DNA of 33,742 bases from a virus: the IMG/VR virus record IMGVR_UViG_3300032820_000056, positions 1 through 33,742 of that record; one strand, written 5' to 3'. A program made the position numbers and the translations under genes. The notes below the pieces were generated by a model that did not search any database, was not told the DNA's origin, and saw only the letters and a list, made by a program, of their open reading frames with translations. This document shows positions 1 to 12,194 of this stretch, one piece after another; the first letter of the stretch is position 1, and the number at the start of each line of letters is the position of its first letter.

Positions 1-858
1 CTTGACTGGGGCGTAAACCATCTGCGGTACGACACGCTCGGGCTGGCCAAGCAGGAATCCGCGCTCCGGGTGGTAGTGGTAATGAACCTGGAAGACTGCC
101 GGCCCGTCATCGGAACTTCGAACCTGGAAGATCGCTACGCCGTCGGATGCGCTAATCAATTTGATTGGCTGCGGAGAACGAGACATCAATTCAAGTTCTA
201 GTTTTCTGTCGTGCTGCTCCGTATGTCCCGACGGGTGGGGCTGTCCGCACATCTTCTCGTCGAAGTCATCAAAAGAGAACTCCAAATCATTCTGCGTCTG
301 GACGTGTGTCTCTTCGTGTTCCATGAGCGCGACATCGGCACCCTTGACCGAAATAGTGCCAGTCAGTTGATTTGCTCCGTGTAGTACTGGAGAACATTCG
401 TATAGTTCGACTTCGCGCAATATGTTTGCCTGGCGTACTGGATCGAATGTCGCATTGATCGTTTTGTATCCGATAGACCATTCCTGGTCGCCCCCAAAGA
501 AGGCCACGCTGGCAAAGGCCTCGCGTCCCTTTTCGGATCCAAGATTGAACTGGACCCGCGCGTAGAGTCCGCCTACGCCCCCGGCCTTCATTTTTTCAGG
601 GAGGCGTGGGTCGCTGGGTCCTACTTCTTGGATGTCTAGAACTTTGCCAATGGGGTCGTTCCAGTTGTGGCCCCAGACGACACGCGGTTTGCGACGCATG
701 AGACTGCTGGCGAAGGCTCCTGGCTGGATGATGTCGCCAACGGAGTCCTTGTTGCCAATGGCGGCCACAAAGCATTCGACAATACCCTGCGCTTCGTCAA
801 CGCTGACTTGGCCGTTAGTGGCCTTAATCTGGATATCTGTTTCCATTCCGACCGGCAT
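1..858 (-). CDS. Prohead serine protease, HK97/S78 family (3' end outside the window)
   Basis: This is the capsid maturation protease, which cleaves scaffold and capsid N-termini inside the prohead. The reading frame is open for 286 codons and runs off the left edge. The sequence VVWGHNW places the predicted catalytic His at residue 64, followed by NDPIGK. The WSIGY block puts the predicted nucleophile at Ser128, and ECSPVLHGAN matches the conserved E-x-SPVxxGAN block of the family. The S78 core ends near residue 165; the remaining 120 residues are acidic and His-rich and could include a fused scaffold-like part. ATG at 858 is chosen because AAGGAG lies 7 bases upstream; an in-frame ATG at 885 lacks a ribosome site. 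It lies downstream of the portal gene on the same strand after a 111-base AT-rich spacer, the usual portal-protease order. The capsid gene should follow to the left. Confidence 0.9.
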   Translation of the reverse strand, partial: MPVGMETDIQIKATNGQVSVDEAQGIVECFVAAIGNKDSVGDIIQPGAFASSLMRRKPRVVWGHNWNDPIGKVLDIQEVGPSDPRLPEKMKAGGVGGLYARVQFNLGSEKGREAFASVAFFGGDQEWSIGYKTINATFDPVRQANILREVELYECSPVLHGANQLTGTISVKGADVALMEHEETHVQTQNDLEFSFDDFDEKMCGQPHPSGHTEQHDRKLELELMSRSPQPIKLISASDGVAIFQVRSSDDGPAVFQVHYHYHPERGFLLGQPERVVPQMVYAPVK

Positions 859-969
859 GAAGACTCCTTGTAGCCCTGTAGTCATGATAGATCACAACAG
901 GGGTACGACACTGTAAAATAATGTGAAAATTACTGTAGTTTCAGTAAAGGGAACAGTTGTTCACTTAAT

Positions 970-2997
970 CTATTTACTCGCCAGGTTCCAGGCTCGTCGT
1001 GCTTCATCTCTGGCAACCTGAGGACGTACTTTGGCGAGAAGGTTGGTGAAATGGCTAACGAGGGAGGATTTGAGTGTTGCCAAACGCTGTTGCTTATCCT
1101 GAAGGGCGAGGACACTAAGGATTTCTCCGGACAACGCATCTTTAGTTTCGGCGTGAATCCTCTTGATCCTCTCCATTTGAGAGTTGACGTGAGTAACAAC
1201 ATCCTCGGGCAACGGGGCGGTGTAATCTGCCGACTTCTCGGAGTACGACTCTGTCGCATCTTTGATGATTGCATTGAGAACCGGACGAATGTCCTCGTCT
1301 GTCTGCTTGTTCCAGGTGCCTTGTGACATTATCGAATCTGCGTCGAGGATTCCATCCGATAGAGCCTTTTGGGCTTTTGTCCCACTGGCCTTTTCCAGGA
1401 TCACACGTTGCTGACGTTCGAACAGACGTTCGAGGCTCCGGTCGAGGATTTCTGACCATCTCTCAAGATCAGAGGTTGTGGCCACCTTGAATTCCATTGT
1501 TCCGGACTGTTCGGACATCTGTCCGCCGGGAGCGGCCATGGCTCCAGTCTGGGGGGCTGCCCCTCCTCCCGGAGGAGCCGCAGTCGCCGCTGCTGCTTGC
1601 TGCTCAGCGGCCATAGCACCCTGCATGGTGTTCGGGTCCAGTAACTCTGCTCCGCCTCCTGGGGGCGCTCCTGGGGGCGCTCCTGGCGCTCCTGGCGCTC
1701 CTGGGGGACCTGCAGCACCCGGTTGTCCGGGAACCATGGCCTGAGGTCCGTCTTCCATTGGCTTTTCGGTATTGGCAATCGGAGTCAGGTTCGGATTTTG
1801 TAGCAGAGAATCGGCAAGATCGGACTCCGTTGTCTTGCGTCCGGTTGCTTCTCGATACTCATTGGCACTGATCAGACCAGTCTGAAACTCCTCTTTCACA
1901 TAGCGCGATCGCTCTTGCCTGTAGATTGTCAGGCTGGGAACTTCGTCTAGGTCGAAGTCGATGTAATGCTTGTCGTCCAATTCATCTAGGGCGCGAGCAA
2001 GGTGTTGAAGATGGGGCGCCATGGTTTCGCTCCAGAACACCCGGATTTCTTCAGAGGCGTTGGCGAAGGTTCTCCCAGAGGCATTACCGATCACCGACTC
2101 GGGCACACCGAACGATGCCAAAATCTCTTCTTTTGTGATCTGCCGCATCTGAATGTAAGCAGAATCACGAGGACTGGCGGACGTGTCGACATAATCAACA
2201 CCATCGTCAGCAGCGATCACAGTCGTTGAGCCGACTCGTCCCAAGTTGCCTCGGAATCTGTTCCTCAGTTCGTTTTTGTCGTCGTCATCTATCTCGCCCT
2301 TGACGACTAGCAGCCCTCCGGGTCGACCGTCATTGAGTAGGTAATTGCGGTTGTATAACTTGGCGAGGTTCTCGATCTCGATGGCCACGCCGGCTGCTTC
2401 CATGGGAGTCATCGAGAGATAGGGATCGAGAGGATGGGGGCGACGAACCCAGACGACGCTTTCCGGGGACATGGTGATCTTTTTGCCATCCGGCATCTGA
2501 ACTTCGTAGCCAGAGACAAACCTCTTGGGGTGAGGGACGGGTGCCGTGGTGTGAGGCGGCAGCAGGTTCAGCCCAATGATTCGTCCGTCTCGTCCTCGAA
2601 TCTTTTCAATAAAGGCACCGCGTGTTCCCATCAGAAGTTGCGCGGAAAGTCGATACCGGAAGATAAACGAGTTCTCACCAATATTCGATTTGCTATTAAG
2701 AAGATTTAGAATAGAGTCGTTTCTTACACGCTTGCTGGTGACGAGTTCACCATCTGGTGAATTATCTTTTCGAAGAACAATTGGCAACCGTGCCTGGTTT
2801 CCTGCGATAGCGTCCACGCAGCGGGCTACCCATGTAACCTTCTGCATGCCCTCCTTGTGGGCACGCTCGATATCCCACTGATCACTATAGGGCTGTCCAG
2901 CGAGACCCGGAGTGTGGGCAATGGGAGCACCGGGACCGACAGTTGCCCTGCCTGCTGCCATCTGATGTGATTTTGTTTCTGGAGAGTTCCAAGCCAT
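970..2997 (-). CDS. Portal protein, HK97 family, with collagen-like C-terminal extension
   Basis: The portal forms the dodecameric ring at the capsid vertex through which DNA is packaged and to which the connector binds. Residues 40-400 have the HK97-type portal pattern: N-terminal WVARCVDAIAG, a central LLPPHTT segment, the PMEAAGVAIEIENLAKLYNRN helix region near 198-219, then NDGRPGGLL, and ILASFGVPESVIG near 292-304. At 675 residues it is longer than usual portals of about 400-500. The excess is a Gly-Pro-Ala-rich stretch (about 421-497, with repeated G-A-P triplets) followed by a charged, probably helical tail (about 503-675). Start ATG 2997 lies 2 bases after the stop of the small membrane gene, so translation is probably coupled; there is no strong ribosome site. 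The tail could be a fused morphogenesis or scaffold domain; its function is unknown. Confidence 0.92.
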   Translation of the reverse strand: MAWNSPETKSHQMAAGRATVGPGAPIAHTPGLAGQPYSDQWDIERAHKEGMQKVTWVARCVDAIAGNQARLPIVLRKDNSPDGELVTSKRVRNDSILNLLNSKSNIGENSFIFRYRLSAQLLMGTRGAFIEKIRGRDGRIIGLNLLPPHTTAPVPHPKRFVSGYEVQMPDGKKITMSPESVVWVRRPHPLDPYLSMTPMEAAGVAIEIENLAKLYNRNYLLNDGRPGGLLVVKGEIDDDDKNELRNRFRGNLGRVGSTTVIAADDGVDYVDTSASPRDSAYIQMRQITKEEILASFGVPESVIGNASGRTFANASEEIRVFWSETMAPHLQHLARALDELDDKHYIDFDLDEVPSLTIYRQERSRYVKEEFQTGLISANEYREATGRKTTESDLADSLLQNPNLTPIANTEKPMEDGPQAMVPGQPGAAGPPGAPGAPGAPPGAPPGGGAELLDPNTMQGAMAAEQQAAAATAAPPGGGAAPQTGAMAAPGGQMSEQSGTMEFKVATTSDLERWSEILDRSLERLFERQQRVILEKASGTKAQKALSDGILDADSIMSQGTWNKQTDEDIRPVLNAIIKDATESYSEKSADYTAPLPEDVVTHVNSQMERIKRIHAETKDALSGEILSVLALQDKQQRLATLKSSLVSHFTNLLAKVRPQVARDEARRAWNLASK

Positions 2998-2999
2998 AT

Positions 3000-3176
3000 T
3001 TACTCAAGACCTAATAGGAAGCCGAGGATCCCACATGACACGCCAGCGACTATTAGCCCCAACGAGGGGCGAATCATCCACGCACCGATGCTTGTGAATA
3101 TAATAAAGGATACCATCAGTACATTTGCGGCGTTTGCCCGATTTAGTGCTGCGCGCAGCCAGTTCACAGGCGTCAC
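3000..3176 (-). CDS. Small two-helix membrane protein upstream of portal
   Basis: A 58-residue frame begins at GTG 3176, with GGAG four bases upstream, and stops at TAA 3002-3000, two bases before the portal ATG. The N-terminus (VTPVNWLRAALNRAN) is amphipathic and basic. Two hydrophobic segments follow, about residues 17-32 and 39-57, separated by the short polar turn MIRPS, so a hairpin membrane protein is likely. It is the first gene of the minus-strand head operon. Its function is not recognised; small membrane proteins in phages can be holin-like, superinfection-exclusion or simply unknown. If it is real, the terminase on the other strand should not start as far upstream as the TTG at 3125, because the two would overlap antisense. 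It was found by reading the frame by hand; the composition fits a membrane protein, but no homologue is known to me. Confidence 0.6.
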   Translation of the reverse strand: MTPVNWLRAALNRANAANVLMVSFIIFTSIGAWMIRPSLGLIVAGVSCGILGFLLGLE

Positions 3177-3193
3177 CCTACTCCATCCGTTGG

Positions 3194-3214
3194 TCTACTC
3201 TAGAATGTAGTAGA
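3194..3214. promoter_or_regulatory. Inverted repeat with -10-like hexamer in the divergent head/terminase control region
   Basis: TCTACT (3194-3199) and AGTAGA (3209-3214) form a perfect 6-base inverted repeat around a 9-base spacer. The spacer contains the plus-strand hexamer TAGAAT (3201-3206), a plausible -10 box. Transcription from it would begin near 3213, leaving the terminase ribosome site GGAG (3219-3222) and GTG start (3230). The region lies between the divergent membrane-protein and terminase starts. No good -35 is visible on either strand, so an operator or promoter is inferred only. Confidence 0.3.
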
Positions 3215-3229
3215 GACTGGAGTGAGATC

Positions 3230-4534
3230 GTGGACGATTGGAAAAACATACTGGAGTTCCTCCAGCCGAAGGAATCTCCGTACTGTCCTGAAGCCGCCTC
3301 GCTGACACAAAAGGTCTTCCTGCGCACCTATTCCCTAGAGGCCCTTTTCGGAGGCGCGGCCGGAGGTGGGAAATCTTCTGCCTTGCTAATGGCAGCGCTG
3401 CAGTATGTGGACGTGCCCGGCTATAGCGCCATTCTGTTTCGGCGCACTTACGCCGACCTCGCATTGCCGGGCGCCATCATGGACCGATTCCAAGCATGGA
3501 TTGCCAACTACGACAACATCAAATGGAACGGTTCGTTGTACGTCGCCACCTTCCCATCGGGTGCAAGAATTTCTTTCGGGTATCTGAACAACTCGCAGGA
3601 CTACCTCCGCTACAAGGGTGCTGAATTTCAATTCATCGGAATGGATGAGGTCACCGAGATCAGAGAGAATGATTATCGTTACCTCTTTTCCCGACTGCGG
3701 CGTCCAGTATCCGGCCCTGTTTCCAAGGTTCCCCTTCGGATGCGAGCAGCGTCCAACCCCGCGCCGAACTGGGTACGACAACGCTTTATCGTAGAAGGCA
3801 AGACGGAAAAGCGTGTATTCGTGCCGTCGCTGCTTACCGACAATCCTGGCATTGACGCCGACTCGTATCGTCAGTCGCTGCAAGCGCTGGACCCAGTAGA
3901 ACGCAAACGACTCGAAGAAGGTGACTGGTGGGCAACCACTCTGGGGTCGATGTTTGACAGAGAGTCTGTCGTCATCATGGAGAATGACGAGGTGCCAGTA
4001 CTAACTCCCAAGGCAAGAGCAGTCCGGTTCTGGGACCTTGCCGCATCCGAACCGTCTCCCTCCTATCCGGACCCCGACTGGACAGTGGGAACTTTGATGC
4101 TCTTTGACGCAGGGGTCGCATACATTCTAGATGTCAAGAAGATCCGCCACAGGGGGGAGAAGGTGGAACAATTCATCGCCCAGACGGCCTATGAGGATGG
4201 AGTATCTGTTCCCATTCGGATGGAACAGGAACCCGGATCGTCAGGGAAGGCATTGATCAACCAGTACGCCCGGTTCGTCGTTCCCGGATACGACATCATA
4301 GGCATCCGGTCTACAGGGGACAAGGTGACAAGGGCCCGCCCCCTTGCTGCTGCTATTGCCAACGGTAACGTGAGGGTCGTCAGGGGAACGTGGTTGACCG
4401 ATTGGCTCGACGAGTTCTCATCCTTCCCGGAAGCCTGCCCTCACGACGACCAAGTCGACTCGGCTACGGGAGCATTCTCGTTTCTTACTGGACTAGGGTT
4501 GCCTCAGCGGAAGCGAGCGGCTATCCTCGCTTAG
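3230..4534 (+). CDS. terL: Terminase large subunit (ATPase-nuclease packaging motor)
   Basis: The large terminase drives ATP-dependent DNA translocation through the portal and cuts concatemers. Counted from GTG 3230 (434 residues), the Walker A loop GGAAGGGKS is at 41-49, followed by the LFRRTYADL segment. Walker B FIGMDE is at 135-140 with catalytic Glu, and the coupling motif AASNP is at 173-177. The C-terminal RNase H-like nuclease shows acidic residues in FWDLAAS (Asp269), MEQEP (Glu334) and PHDDQVDS (Asp406/410). GTG 3230 is chosen because GGAG sits 7 bases upstream and it avoids antisense overlap with the gene at 3000-3176; TTG 3125 would add 35 residues. No small terminase is recognisable nearby. 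The gene runs opposite to the portal, unlike the usual codirectional terminase-portal order. Confidence 0.95.
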   Translation: MDDWKNILEFLQPKESPYCPEAASLTQKVFLRTYSLEALFGGAAGGGKSSALLMAALQYVDVPGYSAILFRRTYADLALPGAIMDRFQAWIANYDNIKWNGSLYVATFPSGARISFGYLNNSQDYLRYKGAEFQFIGMDEVTEIRENDYRYLFSRLRRPVSGPVSKVPLRMRAASNPAPNWVRQRFIVEGKTEKRVFVPSLLTDNPGIDADSYRQSLQALDPVERKRLEEGDWWATTLGSMFDRESVVIMENDEVPVLTPKARAVRFWDLAASEPSPSYPDPDWTVGTLMLFDAGVAYILDVKKIRHRGEKVEQFIAQTAYEDGVSVPIRMEQEPGSSGKALINQYARFVVPGYDIIGIRSTGDKVTRARPLAAAIANGNVRVVRGTWLTDWLDEFSSFPEACPHDDQVDSATGAFSFLTGLGLPQRKRAAILA

Positions 4535-4568
4535 GTACACCTCCCCACTTGTCTACTGGAGGCTTTAG

Positions 4569-5066
4569 ATGACCCCCGACGATGTCCGGGCATTGCGCAT
4601 GGAGATAGCGGCCCTCGATGTCAAGTTGGCCAGGTACACGCAGGATGACCATTCGGTCGAAGAGTCGGCTGAACTGCTGCTCGAACTGAACTTGGCTAAA
4701 CGGGATATGAGTTTTCTTTACGATGGCCTGTCATCCTGGCTCGGCGGAGCGATGGATGGCAACCAAATTCTTGGTCTGCGGGACATGGCTACGGTTGAGC
4801 GCAAGATGTCCGCCAGCCGTTCGGGATGGAAGCACAAGGCTCTTGTCCGTGATGTGATGGATCGCATCGAGCAATCATCAGTGGACATGGACACGGGCGA
4901 AGTCGTCCTGTCCCCCAGTGAAATGGGCATAAAGATATTGGAGTATCTCCAGCCATCGTACTGGCGGGTTGGGGCACTGAACAAGATCGGACTAAATCCC
5001 GATAACTATTGTGAGTCGTCCCAACCCAAAGTAAGCGTCATCGTTAGAAGGGGCAATGCAGAATGA
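4569..5066 (+). CDS. Conserved phage protein of unknown function downstream of terminase
   Basis: I do not recognise a functional domain. The 165-residue product is mostly helical in appearance. Residues 1-60 are acidic and Leu/Glu-rich (repeated E-L-L pattern). The centre has KMSASRSGWKHKALVRDVMDRI (split as KMSASRSGWK then HKALVRDVM), with basic residues that could contact nucleic acid. The C-terminal part, YWRVGALNKIGLNPDNYCE, resembles short domains seen in actinophage hypothetical proteins, from memory only. The start ATG is preceded by GGAGG at a good distance. Its stop overlaps the Rad52-like gene by 4 bases (ATGA), so it is probably cotranslated with the recombination genes. A role in recombination or as a DNA-binding partner is guesswork from position. 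Confidence 0.75.
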   Translation: MTPDDVRALRMEIAALDVKLARYTQDDHSVEESAELLLELNLAKRDMSFLYDGLSSWLGGAMDGNQILGLRDMATVERKMSASRSGWKHKALVRDVMDRIEQSSVDMDTGEVVLSPSEMGIKILEYLQPSYWRVGALNKIGLNPDNYCESSQPKVSVIVRRGNAE

Positions 5067-5692
5067 GCAAGGAAATACTTAAGCAACTGTCTACGCCGTT
5101 CCCGGCCGAACTGGAAGGCACCCTGAACAAGGGGGGAGTGGCATTTAGGTTTGTTTCAGTCAACGAGGTCATTGCACGCCTCAACGACGTTTTGGGATTT
5201 GAGAACTGGAACTTCGAGGTTCTCTCCTGTGAACGCAGTCTCGAGGGAGGCGACAACGTTATTGCCCATGTCCGTCTGACGGCAGTCGTCAACGACAAGA
5301 CACTCAAGAGGGAAGCATACGGTGGCGCAGAGGTCAAGGCGAAGAAGAACGGGGGTCTTCTCGATTTGGGGAACGACCACAAGATCGCGATCTCCGACGC
5401 TTTGAAGAAGGCCGCTTCCATGATGGGGGTGGGCCTCTATCTCTACCGCTCCGAAGAGGCTCTGATACACGAGGCGAAGGAAGAGATCAACCCCGAGGTA
5501 CAACAGTTGTGGGACAACTTCACGAGCCTGATCGCCAAGTTCGACAAGTCTCAGAAGGACGAAATAGCCGTGTTCTGGAAGGAGCATGCCGGAGAGCGCG
5601 CCAAGCCCACACGGGAAACGGCGAACATCGAGGATCTGACGGCGCTGTTGGAAAAGTGCGTAGCGGTTTCTTTCAATGTCGAAACCGAATAG
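5063..5692 (+). CDS. Rad52/Rad22-type single-strand DNA annealing protein
   Basis: Proteins of this family bind single-stranded DNA and anneal complementary strands in phage recombination. The 209-residue protein carries the Rad52-like core at about residues 8-130: FRFVSVNEVIARLNDVLGFENW, split here as FRFVSVNEVIARL and NDVLGFENW, then alternating strands ending in YGGAEVK. The conserved DLGNDHKIAISDALKKA and MGVGLYLY blocks follow at about 101-128. The C-terminal 80 residues are polar and helical, probably for oligomer or partner contact. The start is fixed by the ATGA overlap with the previous gene and by AGAAGGGG upstream. The neighbouring Cas4-like nuclease probably supplies the resected ends this annealer needs, giving a two-component recombination pair. 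Confidence 0.88.
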   Translation: MSKEILKQLSTPFPAELEGTLNKGGVAFRFVSVNEVIARLNDVLGFENWNFEVLSCERSLEGGDNVIAHVRLTAVVNDKTLKREAYGGAEVKAKKNGGLLDLGNDHKIAISDALKKAASMMGVGLYLYRSEEALIHEAKEEINPEVQQLWDNFTSLIAKFDKSQKDEIAVFWKEHAGERAKPTRETANIEDLTALLEKCVAVSFNVETE

Positions 5693-7978: not shown

Positions 7979-8526
7979 ACATTCTCGGTCTAGATCCCTC
8001 GCTTACTTCAACGGGAGTGTGTACTGACGACAACAATTGTGTTGCATTCCATTCATATGAAGAAGAGACATCACGACTAACAGATATTCGCAATTATGTC
8101 TTGGGGAGGTGTTTGGAAGAAAATATTAAATGCGTCATTATGGAGGGTTATTCTTATGGTTCACGCACCCGAGCGCATGCCCTAGGAGAACTAGGTGGGG
8201 TGCTGAAGGTGGCGTTTGACGAGGCATGGATTCCTTTTGTGATCGTGCCCCCCACTTCACGCGCCAAGTTCGCTACCGGCCGTGGGAATGCCGGCAAGGC
8301 TGAGGTAATTTCAGCGGTGTCGTTCAAGACCAATAGGTCCTGGTCGGGTAAGGGCATCGAGGATCGCATTGACGCCTGGGTGCTTCGCGAGATGGGCCTT
8401 CAGCGACTCGGCGAGAGTCAGTACACATGGGCCGCAGAGAACCTTAAGGCTCTTGACAATATCGATTGGGAGCCATTGCTGATGATGGCGGGAGTAGAGA
8501 ATGGTGAACCGATCGCAGCCGATTAG
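7975..8526 (+). CDS. RuvC-like Holliday junction resolvase
   Basis: RuvC-type nucleases cut four-way junctions. Starting from GTG 7975 (183 residues, 4-base GTGA overlap with the HNH stop), the protein begins MNILGLDPSLTSTG with Asp7. It then has VIMEGY with Glu57, a TGRGNAGKAEV loop near 101-111 with Lys108, and EDRIDAW with Asp130 and Asp133. These are the four acidic active-site positions of the fold in the right order. A TTG at 7966 would add three residues, but GTG gives the family's typical N-terminus. In a phage with a Rad52-type annealer, the resolvase likely clears branched replication and recombination intermediates before packaging. The C-terminal 40 residues are not conserved in the family as I know it. 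Confidence 0.87.
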   Translation: MNILGLDPSLTSTGVCTDDNNCVAFHSYEEETSRLTDIRNYVLGRCLEENIKCVIMEGYSYGSRTRAHALGELGGVLKVAFDEAWIPFVIVPPTSRAKFATGRGNAGKAEVISAVSFKTNRSWSGKGIEDRIDAWVLREMGLQRLGESQYTWAAENLKALDNIDWEPLLMMAGVENGEPIAAD

Positions 8527-8848
8527 TCAGGTCGACATCGAGCATGAGTTGATGCGTCTGATCGAATCGCTGGAAGACGAGACTGAGGTTTTCGAGGAAC
8601 TCGCTGTGAGCGCCGCGAAGAAGGAGGCTCGATACAAGGCGGCTTGGGCTAAAGAATATTTGTCCGCCAAGGGTTCCATTAAAGAACGCGAGTCGTGGGC
8701 CGACTACAAACTTGCTGATGAACAGTTTGAGTACAAAATATCGGAAGCCCTACTAAAAGCAAAACGGGAGAAGTTGCTCTCCCTGCGGACATCGATTGAC
8801 GCCATGAGGACACTCAATGCTAATGTTCGATTCCAGGTGGGTCCGTAA
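8501..8848 (+). CDS. Conserved helical phage protein of unknown function
   Basis: This 115-residue, highly charged protein appears entirely helical. It has a long Glu/Lys-rich coil (residues 10-60), the segment WADYKLADEQFEYKISEA, and KREKLLSLRTSIDAMRTLN near the end. Similar short proteins occur beside RuvC or Rad52-type genes in actinobacterial phages, from memory and not checked. No enzyme motif is seen. It overlaps the RuvC-like gene by 26 bases, and its TAA shares a base with the next start (TAATG), so it belongs to the same translational run. It could be a recombination accessory or a DNA-mimicking or coiled-coil partner; I cannot decide. Confidence 0.75.
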   Translation: MVNRSQPISQVDIEHELMRLIESLEDETEVFEELAVSAAKKEARYKAAWAKEYLSAKGSIKERESWADYKLADEQFEYKISEALLKAKREKLLSLRTSIDAMRTLNANVRFQVGP

Positions 8849-9633
8849 TGGAACATAACACGAGCGAGGCGCTGCAAGGGCTGTTGATGCCGTTGGATTC
8901 TCTAATCGCGTTATCCCATAACCCGCGAGTCGGCAATGTCGAAGCGATTATGGCTTCTTACAAGGAGTTTGGCCAGGTCAAACCAATCGTGGTTAGACCA
9001 AACACGGACGGTACAGCAACCGTTCTTGCGGGTAACCATCAGGTCGAAGCGGTCAGACGCCTGGGATGGACGCACATCGCCGCTGTGCCAATTGATGCGG
9101 ACGACAAGCGGGCGGTTGCATTCGCCCTCGCAGACAACCGAACGATGGAGTTGGGACATACGGATCCCGTCGGTGCGTCGCACATGATTGTTGAGATCGT
9201 TGATGAGTACAACGATTTGATGGAGAATCTTAAATGGGACGACTACGAGATCGCCTATTACGAAGAGCAGGCTCAGAGGGTGGTAGGGCCCGGCGATGAT
9301 GTTGTGGGTTTCATTACGCCAGTGATCTCGGAAGTGGTCGGGGAAGCGGCTGAGATGTTGGCCGGGATGGTTCGGGAGGGCGAGGACGGGGAGCGACAGA
9401 TCGTTGCTGACGATTCGGTAGACCATGCTGAGATCGCGATTCAGGGGAGTACGGCAGTAGTACCTGGGGCTGCACCTCGTGCGGTAGTTCAATACACCAT
9501 CGTTTTTGATGATCCCGAACAGCAGAAGCGGTGGTACAACTTCATTCGGTGGCTTCGCAATAATCCCGGATACGACGGGAGTACGACCGGGGAAAAGATC
9601 CTCGCTTTCGTTGACGCCCACTCAGAGGTATGA
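8848..9633 (+). CDS. ParB/Srx-domain protein, IbrB-like, with C-terminal extension
   Basis: A ParB N-terminal domain fills about residues 12-100: MPLDSLIALSHNPR, then YKEFGQVKPIVV, the signature AGNHQVEAVRRLG at 61-73, and a final ALADNRT block. This fold binds nucleotides (CTP in ParB, ATP in relatives) and in some members acts as an ATPase, kinase or nuclease. Residues 105-200 are acidic and poorly ordered. The C-terminal 50 residues carry a separate Trp-rich unit, YTIVFDDPEQQKRWYNFIRWL, near 216-236. There is no DNA-binding HTH as in chromosomal ParB. The stop overlaps the start of the PAPS-reductase-like gene (ATGA), the arrangement of IbrB-IbrA pairs, so a joint function is likely though unknown. 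Confidence 0.85.
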   Translation: MEHNTSEALQGLLMPLDSLIALSHNPRVGNVEAIMASYKEFGQVKPIVVRPNTDGTATVLAGNHQVEAVRRLGWTHIAAVPIDADDKRAVAFALADNRTMELGHTDPVGASHMIVEIVDEYNDLMENLKWDDYEIAYYEEQAQRVVGPGDDVVGFITPVISEVVGEAAEMLAGMVREGEDGERQIVADDSVDHAEIAIQGSTAVVPGAAPRAVVQYTIVFDDPEQQKRWYNFIRWLRNNPGYDGSTTGEKILAFVDAHSEV

Positions 9634-10760
9634 GTCGTCAGCGAATGTTCCTCGACATCTCGTGTGTCGAGGCGGCTCGTCAGAGGATCCGACACGTTTA
9701 CGACGTTTTCGATACGGTCTGTGTACAGTTCTCGGGCGGCAAGGACAGCACAGCGGCTCTATACCTGGCTAAAGAGGTACACGAGGAACGTGGGCTAGGG
9801 CCAGTCAAGGTCATCTTTCGTGACGAAGAGATGGTTAGTCCACTCGTTGAGGCATACGTCAACGAGGTCCGTGAGTATGACTGGGTGGACATGGAGTGGT
9901 ATTGCCTGCCGACTGCCGCAGAGATTTGGGTTTTGGGTAGGCGGCAATCGTTAATCATTTGGGACGAAGAGCGAGCAAAAGAGAACAGGCTTGTTCGTCC
10001 TATCCCTGAGTGGGCGATTACGGCATATCATTTTGGGCTGGACCATTCCAACGCGTTGCCCCAACTGATCGACTACTACACGATGCAAGGCAAAGTCGGC
10101 CAAGTCGCCTTTGTGACTGGGGTCAGGGCTGCCGAATCGATGGTTCGTTATCGGTCAGTTGTTCAAAAACTCCATGAGAATTACATCAACAATCCTTACA
10201 AGTTGAGTAAGAGTGTGCCGATGAAATTCGCCAAGGTGATCTACGACTGGAATGTCGACGACGTATTCAAGTTCATCGTGGAAGAACACGGCGCGTCCTA
10301 TTGCGAGTACTACGACCGAGCGGCAATGACCGGATCGAATACTCGGGTTGGGATTCCACTACACGCGGTTGCCATTCGTCGGATTGGCGATCTGGTGGCT
10401 ACCGAGCCGGAGTTCTATGACCGGCTGTGCGAGTGCTTTCCTCAGATTGATGCTCAACGTCGTTGGTGGAAAGATGTCGATGTCGAAAAGTTCATCGCCG
10501 GATACGCCGAAGTCGGATGGGATGGGGCAGCCGACTTCATTGACGCCTACATGATCGGCCCTTCGAACACCCAGCGGGCCAAGGCGCTCGTGGCTGAGTT
10601 CCGCCAGAAGCATGCGCGAGATCCGTACTCGTATCCGTTTGAGAATTTGATTCGTCATTTGCTACTCAAGGAAATTAGTAGCGCCATGTCCATCACCCCG
10701 GTTGGACCTAAAACCCGGGCACACACCCTGCGCATGAAAGAGGCGGAAAATGGAAATTGA
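9630..10760 (+). CDS. PAPS reductase-like PP-loop protein, IbrA/DUF3440 type
   Basis: This 376-residue protein is an ATP-pyrophosphatase-fold enzyme. The PP-loop SGGKDST is at 35-41 in the context VCVQFSGGKDSTAALYL. The later blocks GVRAAESMVR (164-173), AKVIYDWNVDDVF (201-213) and the region from SYCEYYDRAA to RVGIPLHAVAIR (223-250) follow the order seen in IbrA/DUF3440 proteins rather than assimilatory CysH. The C-terminal CxxC-type substrate cysteine of CysH is absent, and the four-cysteine cluster of DndC is not evident, so sulfate assimilation and classical phosphorothioation are unlikely. AMP-activating chemistry on an unknown substrate is expected from the fold. It is flanked by two ParB-domain genes, overlapping both (4 and 11 bases), so the three are almost certainly coexpressed. 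Confidence 0.88.
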   Translation: MSRQRMFLDISCVEAARQRIRHVYDVFDTVCVQFSGGKDSTAALYLAKEVHEERGLGPVKVIFRDEEMVSPLVEAYVNEVREYDWVDMEWYCLPTAAEIWVLGRRQSLIIWDEERAKENRLVRPIPEWAITAYHFGLDHSNALPQLIDYYTMQGKVGQVAFVTGVRAAESMVRYRSVVQKLHENYINNPYKLSKSVPMKFAKVIYDWNVDDVFKFIVEEHGASYCEYYDRAAMTGSNTRVGIPLHAVAIRRIGDLVATEPEFYDRLCECFPQIDAQRRWWKDVDVEKFIAGYAEVGWDGAADFIDAYMIGPSNTQRAKALVAEFRQKHARDPYSYPFENLIRHLLLKEISSAMSITPVGPKTRAHTLRMKEAENGN

Positions 10761-11316
10761 ACAGGTTGAGTGTGAGTCGCTCAACATTCCCGACTGGAAT
10801 ACAACATACATCTTGAGGCCAGACCTGTTGGTTTTGGCTCGGTCCATTGCCGATCATGGAATTTTGGCGCCCCTGGTAGTGCAGCGTGAGGGGTCCAATG
10901 TCATCGACGGCGGACAGCGTCTGCGCCTCGTGCTGGGCAACGCATCCATCAATGAAGCGTGCGAGGGAAAGGTTCCGGTGACGTGGGTTGATTGCGACAA
11001 TACGGAAGCGATGATTCTGCACGTCCAAATCAATCGTGGTCGCGGTGCGGTGGTTGCCCACAAATTGTCAAAACTAATAAAGACTCTCAAGCGGGCGACA
11101 AGGATGACGGATCAGGAATACCGTGATCATTTCAACATGAAGTTTGATGAACTCGAACTCATGCTTGACGGTTCGATTGTTAAACATCGCAAGGTTTCGA
11201 AACACAATTACTCCCGAGCATGGGTTCCCGTAGAGGCCCCTCCGGGAACGACCGACAGTGATTTGGCGATACGTCATAAAGTCACAATCGAACAGCCCCC
11301 CAACTCGGATCGATAA
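10750..11316 (+). CDS. Second ParB-like domain protein
   Basis: A 188-residue protein with a ParB/Srx-like N-terminal domain at about residues 7-95. Its blocks are LARSIADHGILAPLVVQ, then VIDGGQRLRLVLG at 52-64 (the position of the ParB GERRxxA motif and similar to the DGQHR motif of DndB-type proteins), and HVQINRGRGAVVAHK near 91-105. The C-terminal half is basic and helical (KLIKTLKRATRMT, FNMKFDELELML) and may bind nucleic acid. It differs clearly from the ParB-like protein at 8848. It starts within the end of the PAPS-reductase-like gene, with GAGGCGGAA just upstream as ribosome site. This is the last gene before a change from DNA metabolism to structural genes. Confidence 0.8.
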   Translation: MEIEQVECESLNIPDWNTTYILRPDLLVLARSIADHGILAPLVVQREGSNVIDGGQRLRLVLGNASINEACEGKVPVTWVDCDNTEAMILHVQINRGRGAVVAHKLSKLIKTLKRATRMTDQEYRDHFNMKFDELELMLDGSIVKHRKVSKHNYSRAWVPVEAPPGTTDSDLAIRHKVTIEQPPNSDR

Positions 11317-11543: not shown

Positions 11544-12194
11544 ATGGCGTTAGTAACTAAAGCCGATGTGAAGACCTACATGGACATCACCCTGTCTCCT
11601 CTTCAGGAGGATTCGGCTGATCTTATTCTGGCGGGTCTTCAGTCCGAAATGGAAACCTATTTGGGGCGTCCGGTCGAGGTCAACACATACACCGATGAGG
11701 TGCATGTGATGGGATCCGACCATGTCGGGGTCCCCATGAGTTCCTTTTTTTACAATCATGATTCCTCGGACTCATCGTCACGCGCTTGGCCTACCATCTC
11801 GACTTTTACTGATCCCCCAGAAACGGTATACCTCAGGAATAGTCCGATTGTTACCGTAACGAGCGTAACGCGTAGAAGTGCGTCGGCTTCCGCTACCACG
11901 GACGCTTTGGTGGAATACACGAATTACCTCGTGCGTCGGTACGGAATCGATGTCTATGGAAGTCTTCCTAACGACAAGATCACGGTTACCTATACAGCGG
12001 GTCTTGCAGGTGGGAGTATTCCAATGCTCAAACTACTCTTGCTCCGGGCAGCAGCACGGGAAATGCAGAACATGCACGATGACGTTGTCGGGATCAAGGA
12101 TCTAGAGCCAAGAGAAACTGCTCTGGCGGAAATCGGTTTTCTTGAGAAAGAACTAATGTCGATTAAAAGGTACCGACGCATAAGGGCCGCATAA
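11544..12194 (+). CDS. Head-tail connector / adaptor protein, HK97 gp6-like
   Basis: Connector proteins stack under the portal ring to seal the filled head and receive the tail. The 216-residue protein starts with the helical pattern typical of the gp6/gp15 group (TKADVKTYMDITLSPLQED, then ADLILAGLQSEMETYLGRPVE). A long strand-rich centre (about 45-150) includes VTYTAGLAGG, and it closes with helices LLLRAAAREMQNMHDD and AEIGFLEKELMSIKRYR. The central insertion makes it longer than the about 110-residue HK97 gp6 and closer to the adaptors of larger actinophages. The stop overlaps the next start (TAATG). Position directly before tail-completion genes agrees with the call. Confidence 0.8.
   Translation: MALVTKADVKTYMDITLSPLQEDSADLILAGLQSEMETYLGRPVEVNTYTDEVHVMGSDHVGVPMSSFFYNHDSSDSSSRAWPTISTFTDPPETVYLRNSPIVTVTSVTRRSASASATTDALVEYTNYLVRRYGIDVYGSLPNDKITVTYTAGLAGGSIPMLKLLLLRAAAREMQNMHDDVVGIKDLEPRETALAEIGFLEKELMSIKRYRRIRAA

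Follow-up and report, generated by a model that had tools for sequence, protein, structure and literature searches.

Rosebush DNA contains dPreQ0 at approximately 28% of G (PMC6884629). For cluster B2 mycobacteriophages, a ParB-like protein has been suggested to be DpdB (PMC6392294), and DpdB has been described as a ParB-like ATPase (PMC12839542). CmoY, an asparagine-synthetase-like AMP-forming ligase, also acts on phage DNA and has ParBc neighbours (PMC12783734). A survey of the ParB-CTPase fold mentions neither IbrB nor PAPS reductase (PMC12704722). In phages, PAPS-reductase-like genes are routinely assigned to auxiliary sulfur metabolism, and the ParB genes beside them are taken to encode partition proteins. 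Here we analyze a phage cassette in which a PAPS-reductase-like gene (the PP-loop gene) lies between two ParB-like genes (ParB1 and ParB2). Judging from its sequence and gene context, the cassette is probably an undescribed ATP-dependent phage DNA-modification system. A preliminary description of this DNA considered the unit to be undescribed. Our literature search found no published description of ParB-PAPS-ParB as a unit or as a DNA modification, but the neighbourhood is already present in annotated records of mycobacteriophages and of Arthrobacter, Bacillus and Rhizobium phages, where the names PAPS reductase, IbrA and ParB are misleading.

Three overlapping genes form a conserved unit

The window is the whole stretch analyzed, 33,742 nucleotides of IMG/VR virus record IMGVR_UViG_3300032820_000056. 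ORF calling at 8848-11316 gave three ORFs on the plus strand, which overlap by 4 and 11 bases (Table 1). Thus, the coordinates of the three-gene set with overlapping ends, as first described, were borne out, and so was its conserved order. The set is a conserved unit, and its order is kept far beyond chance. In the window lineage, ParB2 followed the PP-loop gene in 80/80 loci, and ParB1 with its C-terminal tail preceded it in 62 of the 63 loci with at least 1.2 kb of upstream DNA. When distant relatives from diverse phages were scanned, the corresponding values were 80/80 loci and 67/67 loci with enough upstream DNA. Prophages from several bacterial phyla showed a concordant gene order. The preliminary description had suggested such a neighbourhood search and had taken a lack of conservation of ParB2 beside the pair as evidence against its reading; ParB2 was kept in every locus of both sets.

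Table 1. Positions of the cassette genes, their motifs and the neighbouring genes in the window
Feature	Position	Strand	Basis or remark
Conserved phage protein PHROG_1389	8501..8848	+	context; directly 5' of ParB1 in window lineage
ParB1, ParB/Srx-fold protein, 261 aa	8848..9633	+	PHROG_723; Pfam ParB_N; PDB profile; AF2 model
ParB1 C-terminal tail, aa 207-259, FDD..QQ..WY.F..WLR...T	9466..9624	+	in ParB1s accompanying PP-loop and ParB2
PP-loop (PAPS-reductase-fold) protein, 376 aa	9630..10760	+	PHROG_2302; Pfam PAPS_reduct; AF2 model; fold search
PP-loop motif SGGKDS, aa 35-40	9732..9749	+	alignment; invariant
GxRxxESxxR motif, aa 164-173	10119..10148	+	G164, R166, E169 and R173 invariant; S170 in 60/61
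YCxxYD motif, aa 224-229	10299..10316	+	also in human FAD synthase
ParB2, second ParB-fold protein, 188 aa	10750..11316	+	PHROG_2159; start 11 bases inside PP-loop gene
DGGQR motif of ParB2 (P-motif), residues 53-57	10906..10920	+	alignment
Head-tail adaptor	11544..12194	+	context; 3' of cassette

ParB1 adjacency was not universal. Some window-lineage loci have extra genes between ParB1 and the PP-loop gene, the distance between the two is sometimes large, and 21 loci have no PP-loop gene within 6 kb of ParB1. Therefore, the cassette is less likely to be a strictly contiguous operon. Furthermore, some large fragments contain ParB1 with its tail and no PP-loop gene, and three fragments (L238, L240 and L276) contain ParB2 without the PP-loop gene or ParB1. 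These cases of distance or separate occurrence count against the DNA-modification reading.

ParB1 matched Pfam ParB_N (1.7e-7) and, by PDB profile, Noc (2.3e-15); the pLDDT of its AF2 model was 85. The arginine of its P-motif is R in 23/62 proteins and otherwise mostly Q or T. Because this arginine is absent in most members, ParB1 may not be an NTPase, which is a further point against DNA modification. The tail goes with the cassette: in ten ParB1 homologues that have other genes beside them instead of the PP-loop gene, the core scored 140-174 bits and the tail at most 1.3 bits. The core was found in 334 phage records and the tail in 65 (52 Mycobacterium, 12 Arthrobacter and 1 Bacillus). ParB2 is carried by the same groups (52 Mycobacterium, 12 Arthrobacter and 6 Bacillus) plus 4 Rhizobium.

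ParB2 matched PHROG_2159 (2.4e-22) and, weakly, Pfam ParB_N (0.02), and its family profile matched solved ParB/Noc chains (1.4e-8). The DGGQR motif, which had been noticed in the second ParB-like protein, was located as given in Table 1. D53, G54 and R57 do not vary across the alignment, and every ParB2 scanned has the DGxxR pattern. The model of canonical ParB partition proteins, TIGR00180, gave 35 bits for ParB1 against a cut-off of 58 and no match for ParB2.

The PP-loop protein matched Pfam PAPS_reduct (2.2e-9) and PHROG_2302 (2.6e-77). Its AF2 model had a pLDDT of 87.7 and a pTM of 0.84, and the nearest folds were FAD synthase and CysH; TilS and TtuA were also among the structural neighbours. 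No cysteine is invariant in the alignment of 61 diverse members: C225 is present in 55 of these proteins and is replaced by A or S in six. The earlier observation that neither the DndC cysteine cluster nor the CysH CxxC is evident was upheld by this alignment, and no grouping with assimilatory CysH was seen. The DUF3440 model did not match the window protein at E<=0.1. In the PP-loop tree, the cassette proteins (97 rows) were split from IbrA-type proteins (8 rows) with a support of 100, although the IbrA sampling is small and the branches are long. Therefore, IbrA/DUF3440 is only a distant relationship, and we dropped the initial assignment of the protein to this type while keeping IbrA as a relative.

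A genomic position shared with DNA-modification enzymes

In a small survey, we examined the position between ParB1 and terminase (the slot) in eight phages of related actinophage groups whose ParB1 has no tail. Seven of the eight occupants are recognized DNA-modification enzymes. LizLemon and Typha have DpdA/Que genes, for which the dPreQ0 product is verified in Rosebush; ChrisnMich, LittleMunchkin and Tonitrus have Tet_JBP with ADDT (amino-acid:DNA transferase) and/or a P-loop nucleotide kinase; Evaa and prophiT48-1 have DNA methyltransferases; and NHagos has GNAT and formyltransferase. In Phonegingi, the gene of another ParB1 homologue overlaps that of Mom (PF25680, 5.3e-46). Within the window lineage, three inspected loci without the PP-loop gene after ParB1 carry N6_N4_Mtase genes there. 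Because the conserved gene set occupies a position held by known DNA-modifying enzymes in related phages, a mark on phage DNA is probable. The preliminary description had left DNA or RNA modification, sensing or countering of host defence and host regulation side by side; of these options, gene context backs DNA modification and not the others.

In most lineages outside that of the window, a GNAT acetyltransferase or methyltransferase gene adjoins the cassette. The gene 3' of ParB2 was GNAT in 28 loci, methyltransferase in 31, both in none and neither in 10. This exclusion had a Fisher p of 2.8e-11 with kinship of the loci ignored, and at least 11 exchanges between the two were counted on the PP-loop tree. 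In the window lineage, 0/76 loci had either gene, which counts against the DNA-modification reading. The position 3' of ParB2 is probably a tailoring slot. The annotation of Phlyer at 20-69 kb, which is most of its genome and where many genes have no function assigned, names no hydroxymethylase, Tet or glycosyltransferase. Thus, no separate handle-installing enzyme was recognized.

We propose the following mechanism. The PP-loop protein would use ATP to transfer an adenylyl group to a carbonyl, carboxyl or phosphate of phage DNA, or of a nucleotide precursor, and AMP would then be displaced by a nucleophile, as in the reactions of QueC, TilS and CmoY on their own substrates. ParB2, which has an intact DGxxR P-motif, and ParB1 would bind DNA, nucleotide or both and offer the substrate to the enzyme, in line with what has been proposed for the ParB-fold ATPase DpdB. 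The ParB1 tail may dock the pair of PP-loop protein and ParB2. The product would be acetylated or methylated where the phage has a tailoring gene, and the modification would probably serve to conceal the genome from nucleases of the host. We give about even chances to a wider reading: a PP-loop enzyme without a conserved cysteine and two ParB-fold proteins would define an unrecognized pathway, in which ATP activates ordinary phage DNA, a new group is installed and GNAT or methyltransferase caps it. In that case, many phage genes now labelled PAPS reductase, IbrA or ParB would be part of the pathway.

If the cassette does modify DNA, an uncharacterized modification is carried by many phages; one scan of IMG/VR gave at least 599 matching stretches. 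It would also suggest a reason for the retention of orphan ParB-like proteins in phages: a single ParB1 family accompanies several unrelated DNA-modification chemistries, namely 7-deazaguanine, Tet/JBP, Mom and methylation, plus that of the cassette. Because the cassette occurs in phages cultivated on laboratory hosts, the claim is directly testable.

Alternative readings

It is unlikely that the cassette is an IbrAB-like regulator, whose PP-loop protein would sense or produce a nucleotide and, together with the ParB-fold proteins, switch on promoters of the phage or the host. In favour of this reading, the closest pair that has a name, IbrAB, carries the annotation of co-activator of prophage gene expression, the database names are IbrA and IbrB, the distant homology to IbrA amounts to 24-28% identity, and plasmids of E. 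coli and Salmonella show the matching overlapped order. However, the cassette proteins form their own clade and a third component is present, no established IbrAB mechanism was found in the literature, and neither the alternation of GNAT and methyltransferase nor a slot in common with DNA-modification enzymes is expected for a regulator. The same downstream genes could finish a nucleoside if the PP-loop protein acted on RNA like TilS, MnmA or TtcA. The structural neighbours TilS and TtuA and a weak match of the methyltransferase to a phage tRNA methyltransferase family are consistent with this idea, which we consider quite unlikely given the ParB-fold partners, the packaging-proximal position common to DNA-modification pathways and the occurrence of ParB1 homologues fused to or beside DNA methyltransferases, Tet/JBP, DpdA and Mom. 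In many phages, terminase, HNH and RuvC genes are closely linked to the cassette, as they would be if it were an accessory of packaging or genome maintenance with ParB-like DNA binding or nicking and a PP-loop nucleotide sensor. This is improbable: related phages that package normally have base-modifying enzymes in that slot, and neither a ParA gene nor canonical ParB architecture was seen in the loci examined.

Sulfur chemistry was rejected, in agreement with the preliminary description, on the lack of an invariant cysteine and on scores far below the cut-offs. Because the clade is also apart from IbrA and the fold is nearest to FAD synthase and CysH, the protein fits neither sulfate reduction nor phosphorothioation of the Dnd type. 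A DndC-like sulfurtransferase is very improbable; the similarity is weak (PADLOC, 4.5e-8; NCBIfam, 26.2 bits against a cut-off of 290.4), the position of C225 tolerates A or S, and no DndD/DndE-like genes were noticed among recurrent neighbours. A CysH-type auxiliary metabolic gene, suggested by the Pfam name PAPS_reduct and by CysH folds among the structural neighbours, is extremely improbable, since the conserved cysteine is absent, NCBIfam CysH is unmatched and the ParB partners are near-constant.

Comparison with known systems

FAD synthase, whose PAPS-reductase-like domain is an FMN adenylyltransferase, was the best PDB match of the PP-loop protein in sequence and fold; it has the YCxxYD motif and performs adenylyl chemistry. 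However, the TM-scores were only 0.34 (query) to 0.62 (target), and the phage protein differs by a long helical extension at its C terminus and by its ParB partners. Dnd also combines a PAPS-reductase-fold PP-loop protein (DndC) with a ParB-fold protein that has a similar P-motif (DndB), whereas the cassette has no such cysteine set, lies far below the family cut-offs and was not noticed with DndA, DndD or DndE.

In IbrA-IbrB, which pairs a DUF3440 PAPS-reductase-like protein with a ParB-like protein, a PP-loop gene is followed by an overlapping ParB-fold gene, and SGGKDS, GxRxxESxxR, DW..D, YD and R are common to both systems. In contrast to the cassette, the pair has no ParB1, has N rather than C at position 225 in most proteins and forms its own fully supported clade. 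Because a SNF2/helicase gene lies 5' of IbrAB-like pairs of Firmicutes and Bacteroidota, IbrAB may be a related chemistry. The CmoA-CmoX-CmoY system of carboxymethylcytosine hypermodification has an AMP-forming enzyme that acts on phage DNA and ParBc-domain genes nearby (PMC12783734); it differs in its PP-loop subfamily, and no carboxymethyltransferase was seen with the three genes.

The 7-deazaguanine (Dpd) system of cluster B2 mycobacteriophages comprises DpdA, DpdB, QueC-D-E and FolE. The cassette has no DpdA or preQ0 pathway (Pfam and PHROGs found no TGT-like DpdA among the window ORFs around it), and Dpd loci have neither the ParB1 tail nor ParB2. However, Dpd also combines a PP-loop enzyme (QueC) with a ParB-like protein, and it occupies the equivalent locus behind a homologous ParB1.

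A conserved three-gene unit

The preliminary description had placed three overlapping genes in the window; their position was confirmed, and the overlaps are 4 and 11 bases. ParB1 (261 aa) matches ParB_N (1.7e-7), the middle PP-loop protein matches PAPS_reduct (2.2e-9) and PHROG_2302 (2.6e-77), and ParB2 (188 aa) matches PHROG_2159 (2.4e-22). Family profiles of ParB1 and ParB2 also matched solved Noc/ParB chains (2.3e-15 and 1.4e-8, respectively). Canonical partition ParB identity was rejected for both proteins. The window, taken from an IMG/VR virus record, belongs to a contractile-tailed phage (portal, terminase and tail sheath genes are present), in which the relative orientation of portal and terminase genes is unusual.

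By tblastn, relatives of the PP-loop protein were found in 213 phage records, 75 of these at ≥80% coverage, and relatives of ParB2 in 77. The genes stand in the order ParB1, PP-loop, ParB2, in some cases with others interposed, in mycobacteriophage Phlyer (annotated IbrA and IbrB), prophi79-1, Arthrobacter phage Kovu, Bacillus phage 031MP002, Rhizobium phage L338C and an Amycolatopsis phage-plasmid. In the window lineage from IMG/VR, ParB2 lies downstream in 80/80 loci, and ParB1 with a C-terminal extension (the tail) is present in 62 of the 63 loci having at least 1.2 kb upstream. A second scan, of distant members, gave ParB2 in 80/80 loci (in locus L116 inside an over-extended ORF) and tailed ParB1 in each of the 67 whose upstream DNA was long enough; because many loci are mutually related, the counts cannot be treated as independent. 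The arrangement recurs in eleven genome loci, from Nocardia, Rhodoplanes, Desulfobacteraceae, Aminicenantes and Kribbella; on the ParB1s of the two Aminicenantes loci no tail could be recognised, and the Kribbella contig stops within the PP-loop gene.

There are exceptions. In 21 window-lineage loci, the 6 kb around ParB1 contain no PP-loop gene. Of 16 records tested, two of them without ParB1 by sample design, 4 have the PP-loop and ParB2 genes side by side at another place in the record; the remaining records are undecidable fragments. Moreover, in three fragments (L238, L240, L276) ParB2, flanked by the PHROG_1389 gene and the head-tail adaptor, stands without ParB1 or a PP-loop gene. Thus, ParB1 is genetically separable, and the PP-loop and ParB2 genes mostly stay together.

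Features of the window and of compared phage loci (slot, position between ParB1 gene and terminase)
Genome	Position	Strand	Feature
Window	970-2997	-	Portal gene
Window	3125-4534	+	Terminase gene
Window	8848-9633	+	ParB1
Window	9630-10760	+	PP-loop protein
Window	10750-11316	+	ParB2
Phlyer			Slot: PP-loop, ParB2
LizLemon			Slot: DpdA-like, QueC, QueD, QueE, FolE
Typha			Slot: DpdA-like, QueD, QueE, FolE
ChrisnMich			Slot: Tet_JBP, Ploopntkinase3
LittleMunchkin			Slot: Tet_JBP, ADDT, kinase
Tonitrus			Slot: Tet_JBP, ADDT, kinase; terminase beyond the stretch examined
Evaa			Slot: ParB-methyltransferase, methyltransferase
prophiT48-1			Slot: ParB fused to DNA methylase
NHagos (Gordonia phage, L192)	1-2470		Slot: ABC/GNAT-like protein, formyltransferase; after ParB1 homologue, before terminase
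Phonegingi (Microbacterium phage, L197)	3462-4614		ParB1 homologue overlapping Mom gene
Kovu (L004)	230-1429		Tandem double-ParB protein
L238	6299-6895		Lone ParB2
L276	2815-3372		Lone ParB2
L280	271-2373		PP-loop gene with insert
L270	6340-7158		Different PP-loop-like protein
Lactobacillus, Streptococcus, Flavobacterium phages	L009:2333-3499, L011:2264-3499, L010:1740-2948		IbrA-IbrB-type pairs
Hendrix (Microbacterium phage, L007)	1619-5167		Glucosyltransferase, methyltransferase, N-acyltransferase, IbrA-type PAPS-reductase-like gene, consecutively

Exchange of genes around the unit

In cluster B mycobacteriophages and their relatives, the ParB1 gene is first on the genome map and the terminase gene follows. 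As shown in the table, the content of the slot varies: recognised DNA-modification systems occupy 7 of the 8 PP-less slot loci (all eight examined ones counted). The NHagos slot genes are possibly another undescribed DNA-modification pathway. Rosebush DNA contains dPreQ0 at ~28% of G (PMC6884629), and LizLemon is in the same genus; the equivalent ParB of phage CRB2 has been suggested to be DpdB (PMC6392294). Away from the terminase, the ParB1 homologue of FlyingTortilla is a ParB-DUF4417 fusion and that of Phonegingi overlaps a gene of the Mom DNA-modification family (PF25680, 5.3e-46). Among window-lineage loci without a PP-loop gene after ParB1, L253, L258 and L272 have N6_N4_Mtase genes there, and no obvious modification gene was seen in L200, L204, L228 and L244.

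In the diverse set, the gene downstream of ParB2 usually encodes a GNAT acetyltransferase of ~130 aa or a class I methyltransferase of ~190 aa (GNAT 28, methyltransferase 31, both 0, neither 10; Fisher p 2.8e-11, relatedness ignored). On the PP-loop tree, these states require at least 11 changes. Kovu has the GNAT gene and its close relatives L100, L101 and L105 have the methyltransferase gene, which indicates a recent exchange. Neither gene was found there in the window lineage (0/76 loci). Two group-transfer enzymes repeatedly swapped at one place are as expected of a pathway with a capped product. If the unit were a regulator or a sulfate reductase, this repeated exchange would not be predicted.

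Other enzymes are encoded nearby. Eight window-lineage loci (L050, L054, L064, L066, L072, L077, L085, L086) have a glycosyltransferase-like gene near the cassette (PHROG_7162 in L072), and some have ThyX or dCMP deaminase near the ParB1 and PP-loop genes.

ParB1 tail, PP-loop protein and proposed mechanism

The tail is the final ~50 residues of ParB1. F220 and Q225 are invariant, and D221, Q226, W229, L236 and T246 nearly so. ParB1 homologues lack it in phages where no PP-loop gene is adjacent. With the Phlyer tail as query, tblastn gave 65 records (52 Mycobacterium, 12 Arthrobacter, 1 Bacillus), a distribution that agrees with that of ParB2; the ParB1 core was found in 334 records. Ten ParB1 homologues from PP-less loci, some of which trained the core model and none the tail model, scored 140-174 bits with the former and ≤1.3 with the latter; the tail-model scores of Phlyer and Kovu ParB1 were 79-83. 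In an AF2 model, the tail is predicted to be a helical pair following a disordered linker, and it may dock the PP-loop protein or ParB2. Besides ParB1, Kovu encodes an extra, tailless double-ParB protein (399 aa) at its genome start.

In 61 trio members, R19, SGGKDS, D65, E67, W111, R123, G164, R166, E169, R173, D206, W207, D211, Y228, D229, R239, P260 and other residues of the PP-loop protein (376 aa) are invariant. No cysteine is invariant among them; C225 is replaced by A or S in six. CysH and DndC identities were rejected on this ground. The AF2 model (pLDDT 87.7, pTM 0.84) shows a PAPS-reductase fold with a long helical C-terminus. The best solved fold matches, with modest TM-scores, are human FAD synthase, CysH, fungal FMN adenylyltransferase and TilS, and the best sequence match is also FAD synthase (2.7e-5). 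The chemistry is therefore likely to be adenylation without a cysteine-based sulfur step. In L280, an intein-like in-frame insert splits the conserved WYCLP motif exactly before its cysteine (window C92). The L270 protein (LGAGVQSTALL; no Pfam hit) lies between the PHROG_1389 gene and ParB1.

We propose a working scheme that extrapolates from the conserved unit, fold, motifs and context. The PP-loop protein would activate a group on DNA with ATP, ParB2 and ParB1 would present the substrate under nucleotide-driven control, and capping of the product would be optional. QueC and TilS likewise activate their own substrates by adenylation. Two systems are precedents for parts of the scheme: CmoY is an AMP-forming ligase acting on carboxymethylcytosine of phage DNA, with ParBc genes nearby (PMC12783734), and DpdB, which takes part in preQ0 insertion, has been described as an ATPase resembling ParB (PMC12839542).

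Comparison with known systems

The preliminary description had filed the PP-loop protein with IbrA. In a quick tree with long branches on the IbrA side, a fully supported split separated 97 trio rows from 8 IbrA-type rows. Thus, the trio is a sister of IbrAB, not a member. In the IbrA-IbrB-type pairs of Lactobacillus, Streptococcus and Flavobacterium phages, an SNF2/helicase-like gene precedes the pair, which suggests that the proteins annotated there as prophage co-activators may likewise act on DNA. The four-gene run of Hendrix is a candidate for a further modification cluster.

No description of the trio unit or of a DNA-modification function was found in a literature search largely outside subscription journals. 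The reinterpretation as DNA modification is well supported by context, its chemistry is hypothetical, and cultured phages would allow a direct test. Should the reading from context be correct, the trio operates as other phage DNA-modification systems with a ParB companion do.
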